Shown piece by piece: positions 6,252 through 40,470 of a stretch of 40,470 nucleotides of DNA. Within the stretch, counting starts at the first letter, position 1, and each line of letters opens with the position of its first letter. The translations under genes were made by a program, and so were the position numbers. Under the pieces are notes generated by a model. The model saw only the letters and a list, made by a program, of their open reading frames with translations, did not search any database and was not told where the DNA came from. Source of the DNA: Clostridia bacterium (lineage in GTDB: Bacteria; Bacillota; Sulfobacillia; RBS10-35; JAJYVM01). The stretch spans positions 1-40,470 of the forward strand of contig DAHVAF010000327.1 of NCBI GenBank assembly GCA_027314765.1. Reading direction: 5' to 3'.

Positions 6252-7933
6252 GTCTGCTTGCTCTTCCAGGCCTTCTCGGCCCGGCACACCCCGTACTCGG
6301 ACGGCGCGATCAGGCCATGGACCCAGGGCTGCATCGCCGAGATGTTCTGCGTGTGCCAGAGCGGGATCACCGGCAGGTTGTCGATGACCATCTGCTGGAA
6401 CTGGTAGCACAGCTGCTGGTACTTGGTGGGGTCGATGGCCGACTGGGCCGTCTTGATCACGGTGTCGAACTGCTGGCTCAGGGTCTTGAACTGCGGGTTC
6501 TTGGTGATCTGCGACACGTTCCAGTACTGGGTCGACTCGAGGTTGGCCGTGTAGCTGATGCCGGAGAAGGTGAACCCGCCGAGGGACCAGTAGGCGATGT
6601 CGTAGCTGCCGGCCCGCATGTTGTTCAGGAACGTGGGCCAGTCCGTCTGCTGGATGTTGACCTGGATGCCGATCTGCTTCAGCTCCTGCTGCACGATCTG
6701 GCAGATGAGCAGCCAGGTGGGGTCCGTCTGCGTCGCCATGTTCAGCGCCAGGCGCTGGCCGCCCTTGGCCAGGATGCCGTCGGAGCCCGCGACCCAGCCG
6801 TCCGAGGCCAGGATCTGCTTGGCCTTGGCCGGGTCGTAGCCGTAGCCCGTCAGCGACTTGTCGAACTGCGGCGAGTTCGGGATGACCAGGGCCACCGCCG
6901 GCGTGGCGTAGCCGTACAGGACCTTCTGGATGATGGCGTTCCGGTCCAGGGCGTACGCGATGGCCTTGCGCACGTTCACGTCCGCCAGGATGGGGTTGTT
7001 GAGGTTGACGGAGAGCATCTGCTCGCCCGGCGAGACGCCGGCGCTGATGAGGATGCCCTTGTCCTTCAGCGTCTTCACGTTCTGAGCGGGCACCCCGAAC
7101 TGGAAGTCCGCCGCGCCGGCCAGCATCTGGTCGAGCTGCGTCGCCTGGTCCGTGATGATCTTGACGTCCACGTAGTCGAGGTAGGGCTTGCCGCCCCACC
7201 AGCCGTCGAAGCGCTTCATGCGCAGGTGGTTGTCGGCCACGTAGCTGTCGAAGGCGAAGGGGCCCGAGCCCACCGGGTTCGTGTTGAACTTGCTCGCGTT
7301 GGCGAAGGCCGTCGGACTGCCGATGAGCGGGCCGAAGAGGAAGTCGGGGAAGAAGTTGTCCGGAATCTTCGGCACCTTCATCACGATGACGAAGGTCTCC
7401 GGATCCGGCGCGGCGACGTGGTCGAGGTCGGTGAAGAAGTTGCCGTAAAGCGGCGCCTTGTTGGCCGGATCCCCGTACCAGGCCATGTTCGCCTTGAGCG
7501 CGTTCGCGTCGCAGGGGGTCCCGTCCTGGAACTTCATGCCGTTGCGGATCTTGAAGGTGAACGTCTTGGCATCGGTCGAGGCCGACCAGCTCGTCGCGAT
7601 CAGGGGCAGCGGCTTGTTGTTGCTGTCGTAGGTCAGCAGCGGGTCGAACATGTTGTAGAGGGCCTGGTCGGTGTTCCAGTCAGCCTCGTGGACCGGGTTG
7701 ATGGCTGCGATGCTGGCGGGCGTGATCAGCGTCAGGGTTCCGCCCGTGATGGGCGTGGTGGCGGCCGCGCTGGCCGTCGCGGCGGCCGTGGAAGCCGTGC
7801 CCGTCGCCGCGGTGCCGCCCGTCCCCGCGCTGCTGGTGGTGCCGCCGCTGCCGCAGGCGGCCAGCAGGCCGCCGGTCGCGGCCAGCAGCCCGAAGCCACC
7901 CGCCCGGCGGATCAACTCGCGCCGAGTCAACAT
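6248..7933 (-). CDS. ABC transporter substrate-binding lipoprotein, oligopeptide/SBP_bac_5 family
   Basis: MLTRRELIRRAGGFGLLAATGGLLAACGS twin-arginine signal plus lipobox; SBP_bac_5-type body (YNMFDPLLTYDSNNKPLPLIATSW...RNGMKFQDGTPCDANALKANM). Confidence 0.9.
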   Translation of the reverse strand: MLTRRELIRRAGGFGLLAATGGLLAACGSGGTTSSAGTGGTAATGTASTAAATASAAATTPITGGTLTLITPASIAAINPVHEADWNTDQALYNMFDPLLTYDSNNKPLPLIATSWSASTDAKTFTFKIRNGMKFQDGTPCDANALKANMAWYGDPANKAPLYGNFFTDLDHVAAPDPETFVIVMKVPKIPDNFFPDFLFGPLIGSPTAFANASKFNTNPVGSGPFAFDSYVADNHLRMKRFDGWWGGKPYLDYVDVKIITDQATQLDQMLAGAADFQFGVPAQNVKTLKDKGILISAGVSPGEQMLSVNLNNPILADVNVRKAIAYALDRNAIIQKVLYGYATPAVALVIPNSPQFDKSLTGYGYDPAKAKQILASDGWVAGSDGILAKGGQRLALNMATQTDPTWLLICQIVQQELKQIGIQVNIQQTDWPTFLNNMRAGSYDIAYWSLGGFTFSGISYTANLESTQYWNVSQITKNPQFKTLSQQFDTVIKTAQSAIDPTKYQQLCYQFQQMVIDNLPVIPLWHTQNISAMQPWVHGLIAPSEYGVCRAEKAWKSKQT

Positions 7934-9531: not shown

Positions 9532-12156
9532 ATGGCGGCACAGACGCCGATGATGGCCCAGTGGCGGCGGCTTAAGGACGAGGAGCCGCTGGCCCTGCTG
9601 CTCTTCCGCCTCGGCGATTTCTACGAGCTCTTCGCCGAGGACGCGGAGCGCGCCGCGCCGATCCTGGAGCTCGTGCTCACGGCCCGCGACAGCATCCCCA
9701 TGTGCGGCGTGCCGCACCACGCCCTCGACGCCTATGTCGGCAAGCTCCTGGAGCGCGGCCTGCGGGTGGCCATCGCCGAGCAGATGGAGGACCCGTCCCT
9801 CGCCAGGGGCCTGGTCCAGCGCGCGATCATCCGGGTGCTGACCCCCGGCACCGTGCAGGAGCCCGACCTCCTGCCCGCCGCCGTGCCCTCTTACTGCTGC
9901 GCCGTATGGCACCCCGCACCGGATGGCCCGTGGGGCCTGGCCGTGGCGGATGCCTCCACCGGCGAGCTGGCCGCCACGGAGCTGGCGGACGCCGGGGCCC
10001 TGGCCGCCGAGCTCGACCGCCTGCAGCCGCGCGAGGTCCTGGTCCCGCCGGGGCTGGAGATCGCGGCGCCGGGCGTGCGCACGCCCCTGCCGGCGGCCCG
10101 GTTTGACCCCGAGGCCGTCCGCGCCCACTTCGGCGAGATGCCCGATGGCGTCGCCGCATCCGCCCTCCCCGCGGCCGGGGCGATCCTCGCCTACCTGGCG
10201 GACGTGCAGCGCGAGCGCCCGCGCCAGTTCGCGGAGCTCACCCCGTACGCGGCCGAGCGGTTTCTGCTGCTCGATCCGGTCGCCCAGCGCAACCTGGAGC
10301 TGACCCGCCGCCTGGCGGACGGCGCGGGTGCCGGCACCCTGCTCGCGACCCTCGACCACACGCTGACGGCCATGGGTGCCCGGCGGCTGCGCGCCTGGCT
10401 GCTGCAGCCCCTGACCGACCCCCGCGGCATCGGCCGCCGGCTGGATGCCGTCCAGGAGTTGGTGGAGCGGCCCCTGCTCCTCGACGGCCTGCGGCGCGGC
10501 CTGCACGGCGTCCACGACATGGAGCGCCTGGTGGCGCGGGTCGCCTGCGAGCGGGCCACCCCACGTGAGCTGGGCGCGCTGGGCCGCTCCCTGCGCGCGC
10601 TCCCGGGCGCCCTGGCCCCGCTGGCGGCTTGCTCCGCGGAGCTGCTGGAGGCGGGCGTCTCGGCCGCCGACCCGTGCACCGAGCTGGCCGGGCGTCTCGC
10701 CGCCGCCCTTGTGGACGAGCCGCCCCCCAGCGCGGGGGAGCGCGGGATCTTCCGCGATGGCTGGGATCCCGCGCTGGATGAGGTGCGGGCCGCCGCCCGC
10801 GATGGCCGCGGCTGGCTGGCCGCGCTGGAGACGCGCGAGCGCGAGCGCACCGGCATCCGCACCCTGAAGGTCGGCTTCAACCGGGTATTCGGCTACTTCG
10901 TGGAGGTCGGCCGCAGCCGCGCCGAGGACCTCCCGGCCGACTACCAGCGCAAGCAGACGCTTGCATCGGCCGAGCGCTTCATCACGCCCGAGCTGAAGGA
11001 GCTGGAGGAGCGCATCCTCGGCGCGGAGGAGCGCGCCGGCCGGATCGAGCAGGCCCTCTTCGCCGACCTGCGCCGCGAGGCCGCCCGCTTCGGCGCCGCC
11101 CTGCTGCGGACGGCACGCGCCGTGGCGGAGCTGGATGCCCTCGGCAGCCTGGCCGAGGCCGCCGCCCGCGGCCGCTACGTGCGCCCGTCGGTGGATATGT
11201 CGCTGCGGCTGCGCGTGCGCGGTGGCCGCCACCCCGTGCTGGAGCAGACGCTCGGCCGGGCCCGCTTCGTCCCGAACGACGCCGACCTCGATGGCGGCGG
11301 CCGCCGCTTGCTGCTCATCACCGGCCCGAACATGGCGGGCAAGTCCACGTACATGCGCCAGCTGGCCCTGATCGTGGTGATGGCGCAGATGGGCGGCTTC
11401 GTCCCGGCCGAGGAGGCCCAGATCGGCGTCGTCGACCGGATCTTCACGCGCGTCGGCGCCAGCGACGACCTGGCCGGCGGCCGCTCGACGTTCATGGTCG
11501 AGATGGCGGAGGTGGCGACGCTGCTGCGGGCCGCGACCCGGCGCAGCCTGCTGCTGCTGGACGAGGTGGGTCGAGGCACGAGCACGCTCGATGGCCTCGC
11601 CATCGCCTGGGCCGTCGCGGAGTTCGTGGCGGCGCGCGTTCGCGCGCGCGCCCTATTCGCCACCCACTTCCACGAGCTGACCTCGGCCCTGCCCGACGCG
11701 GTCAACCTGCACTCCGCCGTCGCCGAGCGGGACGGCCAGGTGACCTTCCTCCACCGCGTGCTCCCCGGCGCGTCCGACCGCTCCTACGGGGTGCATGTCG
11801 CCCGCCTGGCGGGGCTGCCGGAGGAGGTGGTGGCACGCGCCGAGGATCTGCTTGGCTCCCTCCAGGCGCAGGGCGGCCTCCACCTGGCGATGGCCGACGC
11901 CGCGCCGGCCCGCGAGGCGAGCCCCCTGCCCGATGCGGTCCGCGTGCTGCTCGACCGGCTCGGCGCCTGCAACCCCGAGCACCTGTCGCCCCTGCAGGCG
12001 CTGAACCTGCTGTTCGACCTGCAGGCGGAGGCCAGCCACCTCGATGGAGCGCGCCGGCTGTCCGCGCGCGATCCGGTTCCGGGGGCAAGCGGTCCCTCCG
12101 CGCGCGATCCGGTTCCGGGAGTGCGCAGCCCGTCCGCGCGCGAACCCGGTCAATGA
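9532..12156 (+). CDS. mutS: DNA mismatch repair protein MutS
   Basis: GDFYELF mismatch-binding Phe-x-Glu; GPNMAGKSTYMRQ Walker A; LLLDEVGRGTST Walker B; 874 aa. Confidence 0.97.
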   Translation: MAAQTPMMAQWRRLKDEEPLALLLFRLGDFYELFAEDAERAAPILELVLTARDSIPMCGVPHHALDAYVGKLLERGLRVAIAEQMEDPSLARGLVQRAIIRVLTPGTVQEPDLLPAAVPSYCCAVWHPAPDGPWGLAVADASTGELAATELADAGALAAELDRLQPREVLVPPGLEIAAPGVRTPLPAARFDPEAVRAHFGEMPDGVAASALPAAGAILAYLADVQRERPRQFAELTPYAAERFLLLDPVAQRNLELTRRLADGAGAGTLLATLDHTLTAMGARRLRAWLLQPLTDPRGIGRRLDAVQELVERPLLLDGLRRGLHGVHDMERLVARVACERATPRELGALGRSLRALPGALAPLAACSAELLEAGVSAADPCTELAGRLAAALVDEPPPSAGERGIFRDGWDPALDEVRAAARDGRGWLAALETRERERTGIRTLKVGFNRVFGYFVEVGRSRAEDLPADYQRKQTLASAERFITPELKELEERILGAEERAGRIEQALFADLRREAARFGAALLRTARAVAELDALGSLAEAAARGRYVRPSVDMSLRLRVRGGRHPVLEQTLGRARFVPNDADLDGGGRRLLLITGPNMAGKSTYMRQLALIVVMAQMGGFVPAEEAQIGVVDRIFTRVGASDDLAGGRSTFMVEMAEVATLLRAATRRSLLLLDEVGRGTSTLDGLAIAWAVAEFVAARVRARALFATHFHELTSALPDAVNLHSAVAERDGQVTFLHRVLPGASDRSYGVHVARLAGLPEEVVARAEDLLGSLQAQGGLHLAMADAAPAREASPLPDAVRVLLDRLGACNPEHLSPLQALNLLFDLQAEASHLDGARRLSARDPVPGASGPSARDPVPGVRSPSAREPGQ
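12061..12152 (+). repeat. 36-bp tandem repeat, ~2.6 copies, at the 3' end of mutS
   Basis: TCCGCGCGCG starts at 12061, 12097 and 12133 (period 36 nt); encodes SARDPVPGASGP-SARDPVPGVRSP-SAREPGQ. Confidence 0.9.
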
Positions 12157-26855: not shown

Positions 26856-27602
26856 ATGAAGCACGCGCGCTTTCTCGCCGACGGCCGCGCCCTCGCGGGG
26901 GTGCTCGATTCCGACGGCAGCCTCCGGGCCGAGGACGGCTCCCGCCACGACCCCGCCAAGGTCCGCTGGCTGCTGCCCATCCAGCCCGGCAAGGTCATCG
27001 GCCTGGCCCTCAACTTCCACACCCACGCCGGCGAGCTTGGCCTGCAGACGCCCGAGGCGCCGACCCTGTTCTGGAAGCCCAACAGCTCGCTGATCGCCCA
27101 CGGTGACGAGGTCGTCTACCCGGCGGGAGCCGAGTACATGCACTACGAGGCCGAGCTGGCCGTCGTCATCGGGCGCCGCTGCCGCAAGGTCAAGCCGTCG
27201 GAGGCCATGGCCTGCGTGAAGGGCTACACGGTGGCAAACGATGTGACCGTGCGCGACTTCGTCACGAACATGTTCCGGCCGCCCATCAAGGCCAAGGGGT
27301 TCGACACGTTCGGGCCGCTCGGGCCCTATTTCGTGGATGCCTCCGACGTCGACCCGCGCGACCTGGCCGTCACCACGCGGGTCAACGGGCAGGTCCGGCA
27401 GGCGGGGCAGACCAGCCAGTTCGTGCACGACATCCCCAGCATCATCGCGTTCATCACGTCGTTCATGACCCTGGAGCCGGACGACGTGATCCTGACGGGG
27501 ACGCCCGAGGGGCTTTCGCATGTCTACCCGGGGGACGTCATGCAGTGCGAGGTCCAGGGGGTCGGCGTGCTGGAGAACCGGATCGTGGCGGAGACGGCTT
27601 AG
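26856..27602 (+). CDS. hpaG: fumarylacetoacetate hydrolase family, HpaG-like isomerase/decarboxylase
   Basis: YEAELAVVIGRRCRKVKPSEAMACVKGYTVANDVTVRDF; DVILTGTPEGLSHVYPGDVMQCEVQGVGVLENRI; located directly before hpaB/hpaD. Confidence 0.8.
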   Translation: MKHARFLADGRALAGVLDSDGSLRAEDGSRHDPAKVRWLLPIQPGKVIGLALNFHTHAGELGLQTPEAPTLFWKPNSSLIAHGDEVVYPAGAEYMHYEAELAVVIGRRCRKVKPSEAMACVKGYTVANDVTVRDFVTNMFRPPIKAKGFDTFGPLGPYFVDASDVDPRDLAVTTRVNGQVRQAGQTSQFVHDIPSIIAFITSFMTLEPDDVILTGTPEGLSHVYPGDVMQCEVQGVGVLENRIVAETA

Positions 27603-27619
27603 CGGGGGGGCGGCGGCGT

Positions 27620-29065
27620 TTGGGCGCACGCACTGGGGAGCGGTTTCTGCGCGAGCTGGCGGCGCAGCGGCGCGACGTCTGGATCGGCGGCGAGCAGGTC
27701 AGCGCCAATGTGACGGAGCATCCGGCCTTCCGCGGGATCGCCCGGAGCCTTGGGGGCCTCTACGACCTTCAGCACGAGGCGCCGCCCGTGATGTACGCGT
27801 CGCCCAGCAGCGGGGAGCAGGTCGGCTTCAGCTTCCTGCAGCCGCGGACGCCCGCCGACCTCGAGCTGCGGCGGGCCGGGATGCTGCGCTGGGCGCGGTC
27901 CAGCTGCGGCATGCTCGGGCGCTCGCCCGACTACCTCAACAGCAGCGTGATGGCGCTGGCGGCGGCCTCACCGTTCTTCGCGACGGCCGACCCGCGCTTC
28001 GCGCGCAACATCGAGGCCTACTACGAGCACTGCCGCGAGCGCGACCTCTGCCTCACGCACACGCTGATCACGCCGCAGAGCAACCGCGCGGCCGGCCCGT
28101 CGGCCCAGGCCGACCCGTATGTGGCGGCGCGCATCGTGAAGGAGACGGACAACGGGGTCATCATCCGCGGGGCGCGCATGCTGGCCACGCTGGGGCCCGT
28201 GTCGGACGAGATCATGGTGTTCCCGTCGACGGTGCTGAAGGCGACGGCCGAGGATGCGCCCTACTCGTTCGCCATCGCGCTGCCCTCGGACACGCCCGGG
28301 CTGCGGTACATCTGCCGCGAGACCTTCGACCTCGGGCGCAGCGTGTTCGACCACCCCTTCGGCGCGCGCTTTGAGGAGATGGACGCGGTCGTCGTGTTCG
28401 ACGACGTGGAGGTGCCGTGGGAGCGGGTCTTCCTGATGGGCCACCCCGAGCACTGCAACCGCGTGATGAACGAGACGGGCGCCGTGGCGCACATGACCTA
28501 CCAGGTCGTCTGCAAGAACGTGGCCAAGGCTGAGTTCTTCGTGGGCCTCAGCACGCTCATCTGCGACGCCATCGGCATCGACGGCTTTCAGCACGTGCAG
28601 GAGAAGGTCGCCGAGATCATCCTGGCCCTGGAGTCGATGAAGGCGTTTCTGCGGGCGGCGGAGGCCGACGCGGCGGTGGATCAGTGGGGGCTGCTGCGGC
28701 CGGCCTGGAATCCGCTGAACGCGGCCCGGAACCTGTTCCCGCGGCTCTACCCGCGGCTGGCCGAGATCGTGCAGCAGCTGGGGGCCAGCGGGCTGATGGC
28801 GCTGCCGGCGGCGGCGGACTTCGCCGGGCCGCGGCGGGCGGACCTGGACCGCTACCTGCAGGGGCGGGCGGCCTCGGCGGAGGACCGGGTGCGGCTCTTC
28901 CGTCTGGCGTGGGACGCGGCGGTCAGCAGCTTCGGGTCGCGGCAGGTGCTGTACGAGCGGTTCTTCTTCGGCGACCCGGTGCGGATGGCGGGGGCGCTGT
29001 TTCAGAGCTACGACCGCGCGGCGCTGGCGGCGCGGGTGCAGGAGTTCCTGGCGCGCGAGGACTGA
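27620..29065 (+). CDS. hpaB: 4-hydroxyphenylacetate 3-monooxygenase oxygenase component (HpaB family)
   Basis: SLGGLYDLQHEAPPVMYASPSSGEQVGFSFLQPRT...ITPQSNRAA...FDDVEVPWERVFLMGHPEHCN. TTG start inferred. Confidence 0.88.
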   Translation: MGARTGERFLRELAAQRRDVWIGGEQVSANVTEHPAFRGIARSLGGLYDLQHEAPPVMYASPSSGEQVGFSFLQPRTPADLELRRAGMLRWARSSCGMLGRSPDYLNSSVMALAAASPFFATADPRFARNIEAYYEHCRERDLCLTHTLITPQSNRAAGPSAQADPYVAARIVKETDNGVIIRGARMLATLGPVSDEIMVFPSTVLKATAEDAPYSFAIALPSDTPGLRYICRETFDLGRSVFDHPFGARFEEMDAVVVFDDVEVPWERVFLMGHPEHCNRVMNETGAVAHMTYQVVCKNVAKAEFFVGLSTLICDAIGIDGFQHVQEKVAEIILALESMKAFLRAAEADAAVDQWGLLRPAWNPLNAARNLFPRLYPRLAEIVQQLGASGLMALPAAADFAGPRRADLDRYLQGRAASAEDRVRLFRLAWDAAVSSFGSRQVLYERFFFGDPVRMAGALFQSYDRAALAARVQEFLARED

Positions 29066-29094
29066 GCGGAGGGGCGCGAGGACTGAGCGGAGGG
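29053..29094 (+). repeat. perfect 21-bp tandem duplication spanning the hpaB stop and hpaD ribosome-binding site
   Basis: GCGCGAGGACTGAGCGGAGGG at 29053-29073 and 29074-29094. Confidence 0.95.
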
Positions 29095-29103
29095 GTGGCG
29101 CGC

Positions 29104-38093: not shown

Positions 38094-38728
38094 CGAGCGC
38101 GCGCCCAGCCCGACGCTGCCTGCTCGTCGGCCAGGCCAACGTGGGCAAGACGCTCTTTCTCTGCAACTTCGCCGCCTCGCTCGGCGCCCGCGCCGTCCAG
38201 CTGTTCGCCGTCACCTCCGACGGCAGCCGCGCCGCACAGGACCTGCCCCTGGCGCGCGCCCGCGAGATCCTGGTCAGCGACCGCCCCCACGCCACACTTG
38301 CCCTCCAGGGTGTGCAGATCCGGCTGGGCCGCGGCAAGGCGGACGAGGCCGTCCAGCTGCTCGATAGCGCGGGCCTCGCCGACCGCGTGCACCCGGACGG
38401 CGCCGTCCGCGCGGGAATGGCCCAGGCCCTGCGCGCCCTGCGCGAGGCCGATGCCGTGCTGCATATGGTCGACGCCGCCCTGGCCGGGGGGCCTGATCCG
38501 GCCGCCGCCGTGGGCGAGGTCGACCGCCAGATCGCCGCCTTCGCCGCCGCGCCCGGCCCGCTCCGCGGCCGGTACGCCGTGCTGGCCAACAAGACCGACC
38601 TGCCGCGCGCGGCCGCCGGCCTGCGCCGCGTGCGCGCCGCCTTCCCCGGGAGCCTGGTCATCCCCGTCTCCGCCCTCACGGGTGCCGGCTTCCGCGAGGT
38701 GAGGCTGTTTGTCGCCGACCGCATTTGA
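38094..38728 (+). CDS. small GTPase (Era/Der-like P-loop GTP-binding protein)
   Basis: CLLVGQANVGKTLFLCNF P-loop; LLDSAGL switch-II-like; VLANKTDLP NKxD; PVSALTGAGF. No clear ATG/GTG near the expected N-terminus. Confidence 0.75.
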
Positions 38729-39263
38729 GACCCTCGGCGCCACCGCCGCCGTGGCCATCGCCGTGAAGCTGATGGACGACGGCCTCGACCGCGAGCGCGA
38801 CCTGGCGGCCGGCTTCCCGAACTGGGCCGCGCCCCTGGGACGCGGCGCCCCGGCCTACGCCCTGCTGGCCCTGGCCGTCGCCTGCGCACTGTCGCCCGCA
38901 TGCGCGGTGCCGCTGTTTCTGGCCGCTTACGCCATCGGCATGGGCCGGGGACACGAGCGCCAGCCGTCCGGCCTGCCCGGCTGGCTGGAGGGCGTGGTGG
39001 CGCTGGCGATCGCGGCGGCGTTCTTCGGGCTCGTTCGTGCCGCGGCTGCCGCCGCGGCGATTGCGGCAGTGCAAGCCACGGACGGCCTGTTGGACTGGCG
39101 CGCCGACGCGGGCTACCGGCCCCTGCCCCTGCCGGTCGCCCCGCTCGTGGCCCTTGCCGCGGCCGCGTGGGCCGCCGCCTTCGCCCTCAACCCCCTGCAG
39201 GCGGGTGCTGTCGCGGCCTGTGGCTGCGGCATCGCCCTCGCCACCCGCCATGCGAGGGCGTGA
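38709..39263 (+). CDS. small polytopic membrane protein
   Basis: AVAIAVKLMDDGLDRERDLAAGFPNWAAPLGRGAPAYALLALAVACAL...; TTG start overlapping the GTPase 3' end; hydrophobic segments. Confidence 0.65.
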   Translation: MSPTAFETLGATAAVAIAVKLMDDGLDRERDLAAGFPNWAAPLGRGAPAYALLALAVACALSPACAVPLFLAAYAIGMGRGHERQPSGLPGWLEGVVALAIAAAFFGLVRAAAAAAAIAAVQATDGLLDWRADAGYRPLPLPVAPLVALAAAAWAAAFALNPLQAGAVAACGCGIALATRHARA

Positions 39264-39741
39264 CGTCGCGGCGCTCGGCGGCCGCCGCGCAGGGGCTCGT
39301 ACCCCCGCGGCCGGCGACCGCCGCTTCGTCACAGGCACTCGCCAGGCGTGGGTTGGCGCCACCGCCATCAGCGGTCGCTGCCTCGCCGCGGGTGCCCGCC
39401 ACGCACGGGTAGGCGCCACCGCGGTCGGCGACCGCCGCTTCGCCACCGGCGCCCGCCACGCACGGGTGGGCGCCACCGCGGTCGGCGACCGCCGCTTCGT
39501 CACAGGCACTCGCCACGCACGGGCGGGCAATACCGCCGTCGGGGGGAACTGCTTCGTCACCACGCCCCGCCACGTGGAGGCTGACGCCACGGTCGTAAGC
39601 GGCCGCCGCTTCGCCACCGGCACTCGCCAGGCATGGGTTGGCGCCACCGCCATCAGCGGCCGCTGCTTCGCCACCGGCGCCCGCCGCGCGCGGGCCGGGC
39701 TGGCCACCCCGCGGGCGGCCATTCGCCATGTGGGCGCTTGA
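39250..39741 (+). CDS. candidate 19-aa-repeat protein (163 aa), no recognised family
   Basis: Frame 1 ATG at 39250 overlaps the membrane gene stop by 14 nt; seven units of [GS][DG]R[RC]F[AV]TG[AT]R[HQ]A[RW]VGATA[VI]; TGA 39739-39741 overlaps the next ATG by 14 nt. No clear SD. Confidence 0.4.
   Translation: MRGRDVAALGGRRAGARTPAAGDRRFVTGTRQAWVGATAISGRCLAAGARHARVGATAVGDRRFATGARHARVGATAVGDRRFVTGTRHARAGNTAVGGNCFVTTPRHVEADATVVSGRRFATGTRQAWVGATAISGRCFATGARRARAGLATPRAAIRHVGA
39313..39711 (+). repeat. 57-bp direct tandem repeat array, 7 contiguous units
   Basis: Units start at 39313, 39370, 39427, 39484, 39541, 39598, 39655; no spacers; a truncated unit-like segment lies upstream. Confidence 0.93.
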
Positions 39742-39967
39742 GGGCTGGCTGACGGCGGCCGCGGCGGCGGCCGCCACCGGAGCAGCGGCCTTTGCGGCCG
39801 GGGGGCGGCGCGGGTGGCAGGGCGGCCTGCAACGCGGCACGGCCGAGGCGACCCTCGTCCTCCGCGAGCGGGCGCTGTCCCAGGTCGCCTGCCCCGCCTG
39901 CGGCGCCAAACTGCCAGGTGCGGAGGCGCCCGCCAACCCTCATCCTGGGAGTGAGGGGGGAGCGCGT

Positions 39968-40470
39968 GTGCGCGGACCCAGCTATGAGCCCCTGACGCCG
40001 CTGACCCTGCTGGAGCGAACGGCGGACGTCTACCCCGAGCGGCTGGCGGTCGTCAGCGGCGAGGCCCGCTATGACTACGCAGCGCTGCGGGCGCGGGTCC
40101 ACCGGCTGGCGCGCGCCCTCCGGGTGGCGGGGGTCGGCGACGGCGACCGGGTGGCGGTCCTCTGCCCCAACAGCCCGCCGATCCTGGAGGCCCACTTCGG
40201 GGTACCGCTGGCCGGGGCGCTGCTCGTGGCCATCAACACGCGGCTCAACGGGCGCGAGGTGCGCCAGATCCTCGAGCACGCCGGCGCGCGCCTGCTCATC
40301 GCCGACCCAGGGCTCTGGCGTGAGGTGGCCGCCGAGTGCGCCGGGCTGCCCGAGTTGCGCGAGGTCGTGCTGGACTACGAGGCGTTCATCGCGGGGGTGG
40401 CGGAAGGGCGCGAGCCGCTGCCGGATGTGGACGAGCGCGGGCCCATCAGCATCAACTACACCAGCGGCAC
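39968..40470 (+). CDS. acyl-CoA synthetase / AMP-binding enzyme, N-terminal part, runs off the window
   Basis: YEPLTPLTLLERTADVYPERLAVVSGEARYDYAALRARVHRLARALRVAGVGDGDRVAVLCPNSPPILEAHFGVPLAGALLVAINTRL...ISINYTSGT (start of AMP-binding motif). GTG after GAGGGGGGAG. Confidence 0.88.
   Translation, partial: MRGPSYEPLTPLTLLERTADVYPERLAVVSGEARYDYAALRARVHRLARALRVAGVGDGDRVAVLCPNSPPILEAHFGVPLAGALLVAINTRLNGREVRQILEHAGARLLIADPGLWREVAAECAGLPELREVVLDYEAFIAGVAEGREPLPDVDERGPISINYTSG

Follow-up and report, generated by a model that had tools for sequence, protein, structure and literature searches.

Bacterial VNTR or minisatellite loci consist of direct repeats of 40-120 bp, situated in or beside genes, that are gained and lost by slippage. 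The closest known counterparts of the locus described here are the MIRUs of mycobacteria with regard to layout, and the tandem repeats of Borgs with regard to origin. MIRUs are repeats located at the start codon of genes in operons, where a small ORF overlaps the neighboring gene and could keep translation coupled (PMC12548453). Borgs, which are archaeal, harbor many locus-specific arrays that are independent of one another, often start inside the end of a gene, and are present or absent between relatives; within reading frames their units are divisible by three (PMC9879509).

Here, we describe an array of 57-bp units located between two genes, designated A and B, of a GC-rich and little-known member of the Bacillota. 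The window, that is, the whole stretch of 40,470 nucleotides that was analyzed, is contig 196 of a metagenome assembly (G000) of 4.15 Mb in 361 contigs that is 88% complete. As in MIRUs, the ORF of the array overlaps the upstream stop and the downstream start, in each case by 14 nt (39250-39263 with A and 39728-39741 with B). Unlike MIRUs, which form one dispersed and apparently mobile family, the unit was found at a single locus in G000 and not in the congener G001, and rather than an insertion from elsewhere it appears to derive from the end of the local upstream gene. Like the arrays of Borgs, it starts in the 3' end of a gene from which its unit seems to be derived, and it is absent from the same site in a close relative (G001). 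In contrast with Borg arrays, which are near-perfect, recent, A-rich, and extrachromosomal in archaea, its copies are 53-91% identical, GC-rich, and located on a bacterial contig, and unlike a typical VNTR, the array has apparently separated two overlapping genes, with an overlap remaining on either side. A search of the literature returned nothing specific on gene-junction tandem arrays in Bacillota. Our main reading, to which we assign a probability of roughly 0.7, is that A's final 57 coding bases underwent tandem expansion locally, which produced the array and separated the overlapping genes A and B.

Organization of the array and its flanking genes

The features of the locus are as follows.

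38709-39263, forward strand: gene A, a small membrane protein of 184 aa, with a strong Shine-Dalgarno sequence (GAGGTGA) upstream
39195-39251, forward strand: final 19 codons of A through TRH (LQAGAVAACGCGIALATRH), which align gap-free to the unit and are presumed to be its parent
39246-39263, forward strand: left stop/start overlap, CGCCATGCGAGGGCGTGA, the end of A plus the ATG of the repeat ORF in another frame
39250-39741, forward strand: repeat ORF of 163 codons, inside a 234-aa ORF, without a Shine-Dalgarno sequence or a homologue
39261-39312, forward strand: shortened and degenerate copy of the repeat, lying between A and unit 1, with a 1-nt shift near 39260 and ~21 nt missing
39313-39711, forward strand: array of seven 57-bp (19-codon) units, from TRF and unit alignment
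39724-39741, forward strand: right stop/start overlap, CGCCATGTGGGCGCTTGA, the stop of the repeat ORF plus the ATG of B
39728-40470, forward strand: gene B, continuing beyond the end of the window, with a short membrane segment, a CPxCG motif, and, in the same frame, an AMP-binding acyl-CoA ligase

A sequence-only reading of this DNA had reported seven 57-bp units at 39313-39711 in a single frame, and a direct reading of the units confirmed their number, frame, and coordinates. TRF called the array at 39305-39700, with periods of 57, 114, and 171 bp and scores of 316-426. The units begin at 39313, reading GDRRFVTGTRQAWVGATAI ... SGRCFATGARRARAGLATP, and the final 12 nt of unit 7 are out of register. 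They are degenerate, with 30-52 of 57 positions identical in pairwise comparisons; units 1 and 6 are the closest pair (52/57), and unit 5 is an outlier. When the window was scanned with a 57-column profile of the units, the similarity was found to extend to the left of the reported array, across the 3' end of A (39196-39259) and then, following a 1-nt shift, across 39261-39288, a segment that scored 17.5 bits in the register continuing from the end of A. The ~21 nt missing from the shortened copy at 39261-39312 were presumably lost by deletion.

The two ends of the array had also been reported to look alike, each with a 14-nt ATG/TGA overlap, and this was borne out. The left and right overlaps are identical at 14/18 positions, while none of 39,000 other forward-strand positions in the window matches the left overlap at 14/18 or better. 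The left overlap is also 14/18 identical to the single A/B junction of G001 (CGCCATGGGACCGCTTGA). The right overlap is 15/18 identical to that junction and, by sequence, would correspond to the original A/B junction.

The segment 37805-40470 holds a GTPase-like gene followed by A and B, and the A-B pair is conserved in the class, with homologues of A in 15 other genomes. No Pfam or NCBIfam family matched A, and despite the conservation of the pair, neither A nor stand-alone B matched a Pfam family. In both G000 and G001, B (small membrane/CPxCG) is in frame, without a stop, with the acyl-CoA ligase, and in other families of the class it is a separate short gene.

The A/B junction in relatives and the origin of the unit

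A comparison of the locus in relatives, suggested along with the sequence-only reading, found the membrane gene and the downstream gene directly joined in G001, where there is no array and A and B overlap by 14 nt. The proteins of this congener are 84% (A) and 77% (B) identical to those of the window; the end of its gene A reads GCAACTCGCCATGGGACCGCTTGA, where the ATG is the start of B. The order A then B, again array-free, was also found in the distant class members G014, G034, G013, G035, G036, G024, and G037, mostly with an overlap or a few bases between the genes, and in these genomes B encodes a small membrane protein that carries a CPxCG-type motif. Because the pair is array-free in G001 and in several other families, the array would most simply have been gained in this lineage, with G001 as the one congener on which the comparison within the genus is based. 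Gain before the two species split, followed by loss in G001, may also account for what this single congener shows.

The origin of the unit was addressed by scoring the 57-column profile against a frame-matched background drawn from 424 kb of G000, which comprised 102,328 codon positions. The end of A scored 12.2 bits in the window, a value reached in the same register by 2/102,328 positions, and 12.5 bits in the array-free G001, reached by a single position of the 102,328. With any of 19 registers allowed, 23 (G001) and 28 (G000) positions were as high, i.e., ~2.5e-4 over all registers. None of 277 other gene ends attained the score of A's end. In G001, the 57 bases of A that finish with TRH (LQAGAVAVCGLGIAWATRH) can be aligned to the unit with no gap, as illustrated by ARVGATAVGDRRFATGARH. 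At unit positions 35-57, 16/23 bases match the upstream codons of A in G001, compared to 8/24 for the first bases of B, so that amplification of the next gene's start within each unit, as had been proposed, is not supported; only the terminal overlap (~18-20 nt) occurs at both ends of the array.

Given the profile match of A's end, including that of the array-free G001, the unit was most likely copied from A's final 19 codons ahead of the stop region, as judged by a homology test that spans 57 bases, and its alignment to a local gene end indicates that the repeat is local rather than an inserted element. Together with the empty junction in G001 and the array-free outgroups, this homology supports the central claim of the sequence-only reading, that the array grew out of a gene-gene junction. 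The units differ from the end of A at ~40% of sites, exceeding the divergence of A between G000 and G001. Such a difference would point to greater age of the array, unless its copies are free to evolve unconstrained.

Under local expansion, slippage or unequal recombination would have copied the 3' end of A several times, and the copies would then have decayed, with A and B pushed apart and a 163-codon frame left between them. The original stop of A and its overlap onto B would have been carried to the right end of the array. The left overlap may have arisen as a second copy of the junction, or else a +1 shift or one-base insertion near 39260 may have ended A early at a nearby TGA.

In a different account, the array is a C-terminal extension of A itself, forming one protein, and the 1-nt shift near 39260 stems from a recent mutation or an assembly error, or is bypassed by frameshifting. 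The frame of A is indeed the unit frame up to 39259, the repeat goes on in register after one extra base, and the right end stops at the original stop of A. However, A ends at exactly the same length in both species (TRHARA* in the window and TRHGTA* in G001), and the left end is as similar to the junction (14/18) as it is to the unit, and we consider such an extension unlikely, at perhaps one chance in five.

It is quite improbable that a MIRU-like mobile or dispersed repeat was inserted at the A/B junction, duplicating its target, and later expanded. The ~18-20 nt direct repeats flanking the array are compatible with this, as is the insertion of MIRUs at start codons with an ORF coupled to the gene (PMC12548453), but no second copy of the array was found in G000 (88% complete), where the additional match was a 37-bp chance match, and no copy of the unit was found in G001 or other relatives; moreover, the unit matches the end of A itself in the array-free G001. 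The repeat was likewise not found in plasmids or phages. A dispersed REP-like or hairpin element was rejected as a candidate, as nothing emerged from the inverted-repeat search, folding, Rfam, or genome searches: Rfam returned 0 matches, DNA and RNA folding of either strand was no better than that of shuffles (z -0.6 to -1.0), and weak DNA matches at nine loci were attributable to GC-rich chance similarity.

Coding potential of the 163-codon frame

The repeat ORF might instead be a new functional protein, a 19-residue beta-solenoid under selection, and its 163-codon open frame, its GC3 of 0.87, and a mean AlphaFold2 pLDDT of 73 for the sense frame versus 34 for the antisense frame could be cited in favor. 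However, a run of 163 stop-free codons has a p of ~0.07 at the local base composition and three of the six frames are open across the array, so that openness by itself is weak evidence. The GC2 of the ORF is 0.73 compared to 0.53 in genes, and its codon score lies at the low edge of the gene range; a gene-like composition of this kind is expected for sequence copied in frame from gene A. Codon substitutions between units, a check proposed with the sequence-only reading, gave a synonymous fraction of 0.38 in the sense frame versus 0.37 under neutrality, in a star-tree model of low power, and the sense frame thus appears to show no sign of codon-level constraint.

AlphaFold2 placed beta strands in every unit of the sense frame, in a beta-solenoid with a mean pLDDT of 73, and no such solenoid was predicted for the antisense frame. 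The five sense-frame models disagree, ranging from 72.7 to 41.0, and none of the folds in the PDB matched the solenoid at E<=0.001. Beta-solenoids are a known outcome when AlphaFold2 is given random repeats (PMC11795689). We did not take the solenoid as evidence of a fold.

A protein-level search of 154 genomes of the class gave no homologue of the repeat ORF; its one match, to a G081 protein (E 1.4e-6), was rejected as spurious because the similarity is merely R/A-rich and the repeat is absent. No Pfam or NCBIfam family was matched either; a hit to FwdC at E 0.07 fell far under the family cut-off. With the sense frame unconstrained and no homologue at hand, a new functional gene is hardly to be expected; nothing to date points to a useful protein product of the frame, and the 163-codon peptide is probably a by-product. 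Finally, although this is a metagenome assembly and repeats generally cause assembly errors, it is highly improbable that the copies or the join were produced by the assembler, as both flanks are syntenic with G001 and the longest exact repeat within the array, at 33 bp, is within reach of ordinary reads.

Translation of A and B, and tandem arrays across the genus

B lacks a Shine-Dalgarno sequence in both the window and G001, and since it overlaps A by 14 nt in the latter, the layout suggests that B is likely to depend on ribosomes finishing A. As the repeat frame overlaps each of its neighbors by 14 nt, ribosomes could pass from A to B by two successive restarts. Such a relay, from A through the repeat ORF to B, is plausible from the layout, although an overlap of 14 nt exceeds the 1 or 4 nt that is customary, which is a point against coupling. 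A relay across both overlaps would make the expansion tolerable, as has been proposed for MIRUs (PMC12548453), and the likeliest effect of the array on the operon would be near-neutral.

In a TRF survey, strong arrays numbered 23 over 424 kb of G000 (54 per Mb), 10 over 274 kb of G001 (36 per Mb), and 7 over a total of 929 kb from five relatives (Fisher p 2e-7, with kilobases as trials). The genus would thus carry ~6 times more strong arrays per Mb, a figure that is indicative, given that the relatives differ in assembly quality. In G000, 14/37 arrays are located at gene 3' ends versus 12% expected (p 5e-5, based on our own simple gene calls); G001 alone displayed no 3'-end excess (3/18 arrays). 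There are also arrays whose units copy the stop codon of the upstream gene (e.g., L046 1257, L077 7018, L067 6848, L055 5438, and L054 19343), and at the L055 5438 site G001 is ~230 bp shorter. Units from different loci are seldom alike and the arrays are mostly locus-specific, and in its many independent arrays the genome resembles those of Borgs. The A/B array is therefore one of many in the genus, with the same habit seen elsewhere.

Several individual repeats were also observed. Two arrays near gene ends, at L055 5438-5681 (107-bp units) and 6786-6920 (38-bp units), are missing or reduced in length at the corresponding sites of G001. Within the window, a 36-bp repeat at 12046-12143 (2.7 copies) lies at the 3' end of the gene at 9532-12156, just before the next start, and is dispersed, with 8 further matches in G000 and 8 in G001 at 72-90% identity. 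A perfect 21-bp duplication at 29053-29095 (GCGCGAGGACTGAGCGGAGGG) copies the stop codon of the gene at 27545-29065 along with a Shine-Dalgarno-like GGAGG.

A broader proposition is that, in this genus, frequent tandem copying of 3' ends repeatedly splits overlapping operon genes and plants coupled ORFs between them, and that the 163-codon ORF is translated. We regard this as unlikely; if true, raw frames from which new genes could form would be in constant supply. The locus itself offers a clear before-and-after pair, in which a tandem expansion appears to have separated two overlapping genes while a stop/start overlap was kept on both sides, and such an expansion would be one way for bacteria to gain a new open frame. 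Locus-specific arrays at gene ends are unusually numerous in this one genus, and their load could be compared with its replication and repair genes.
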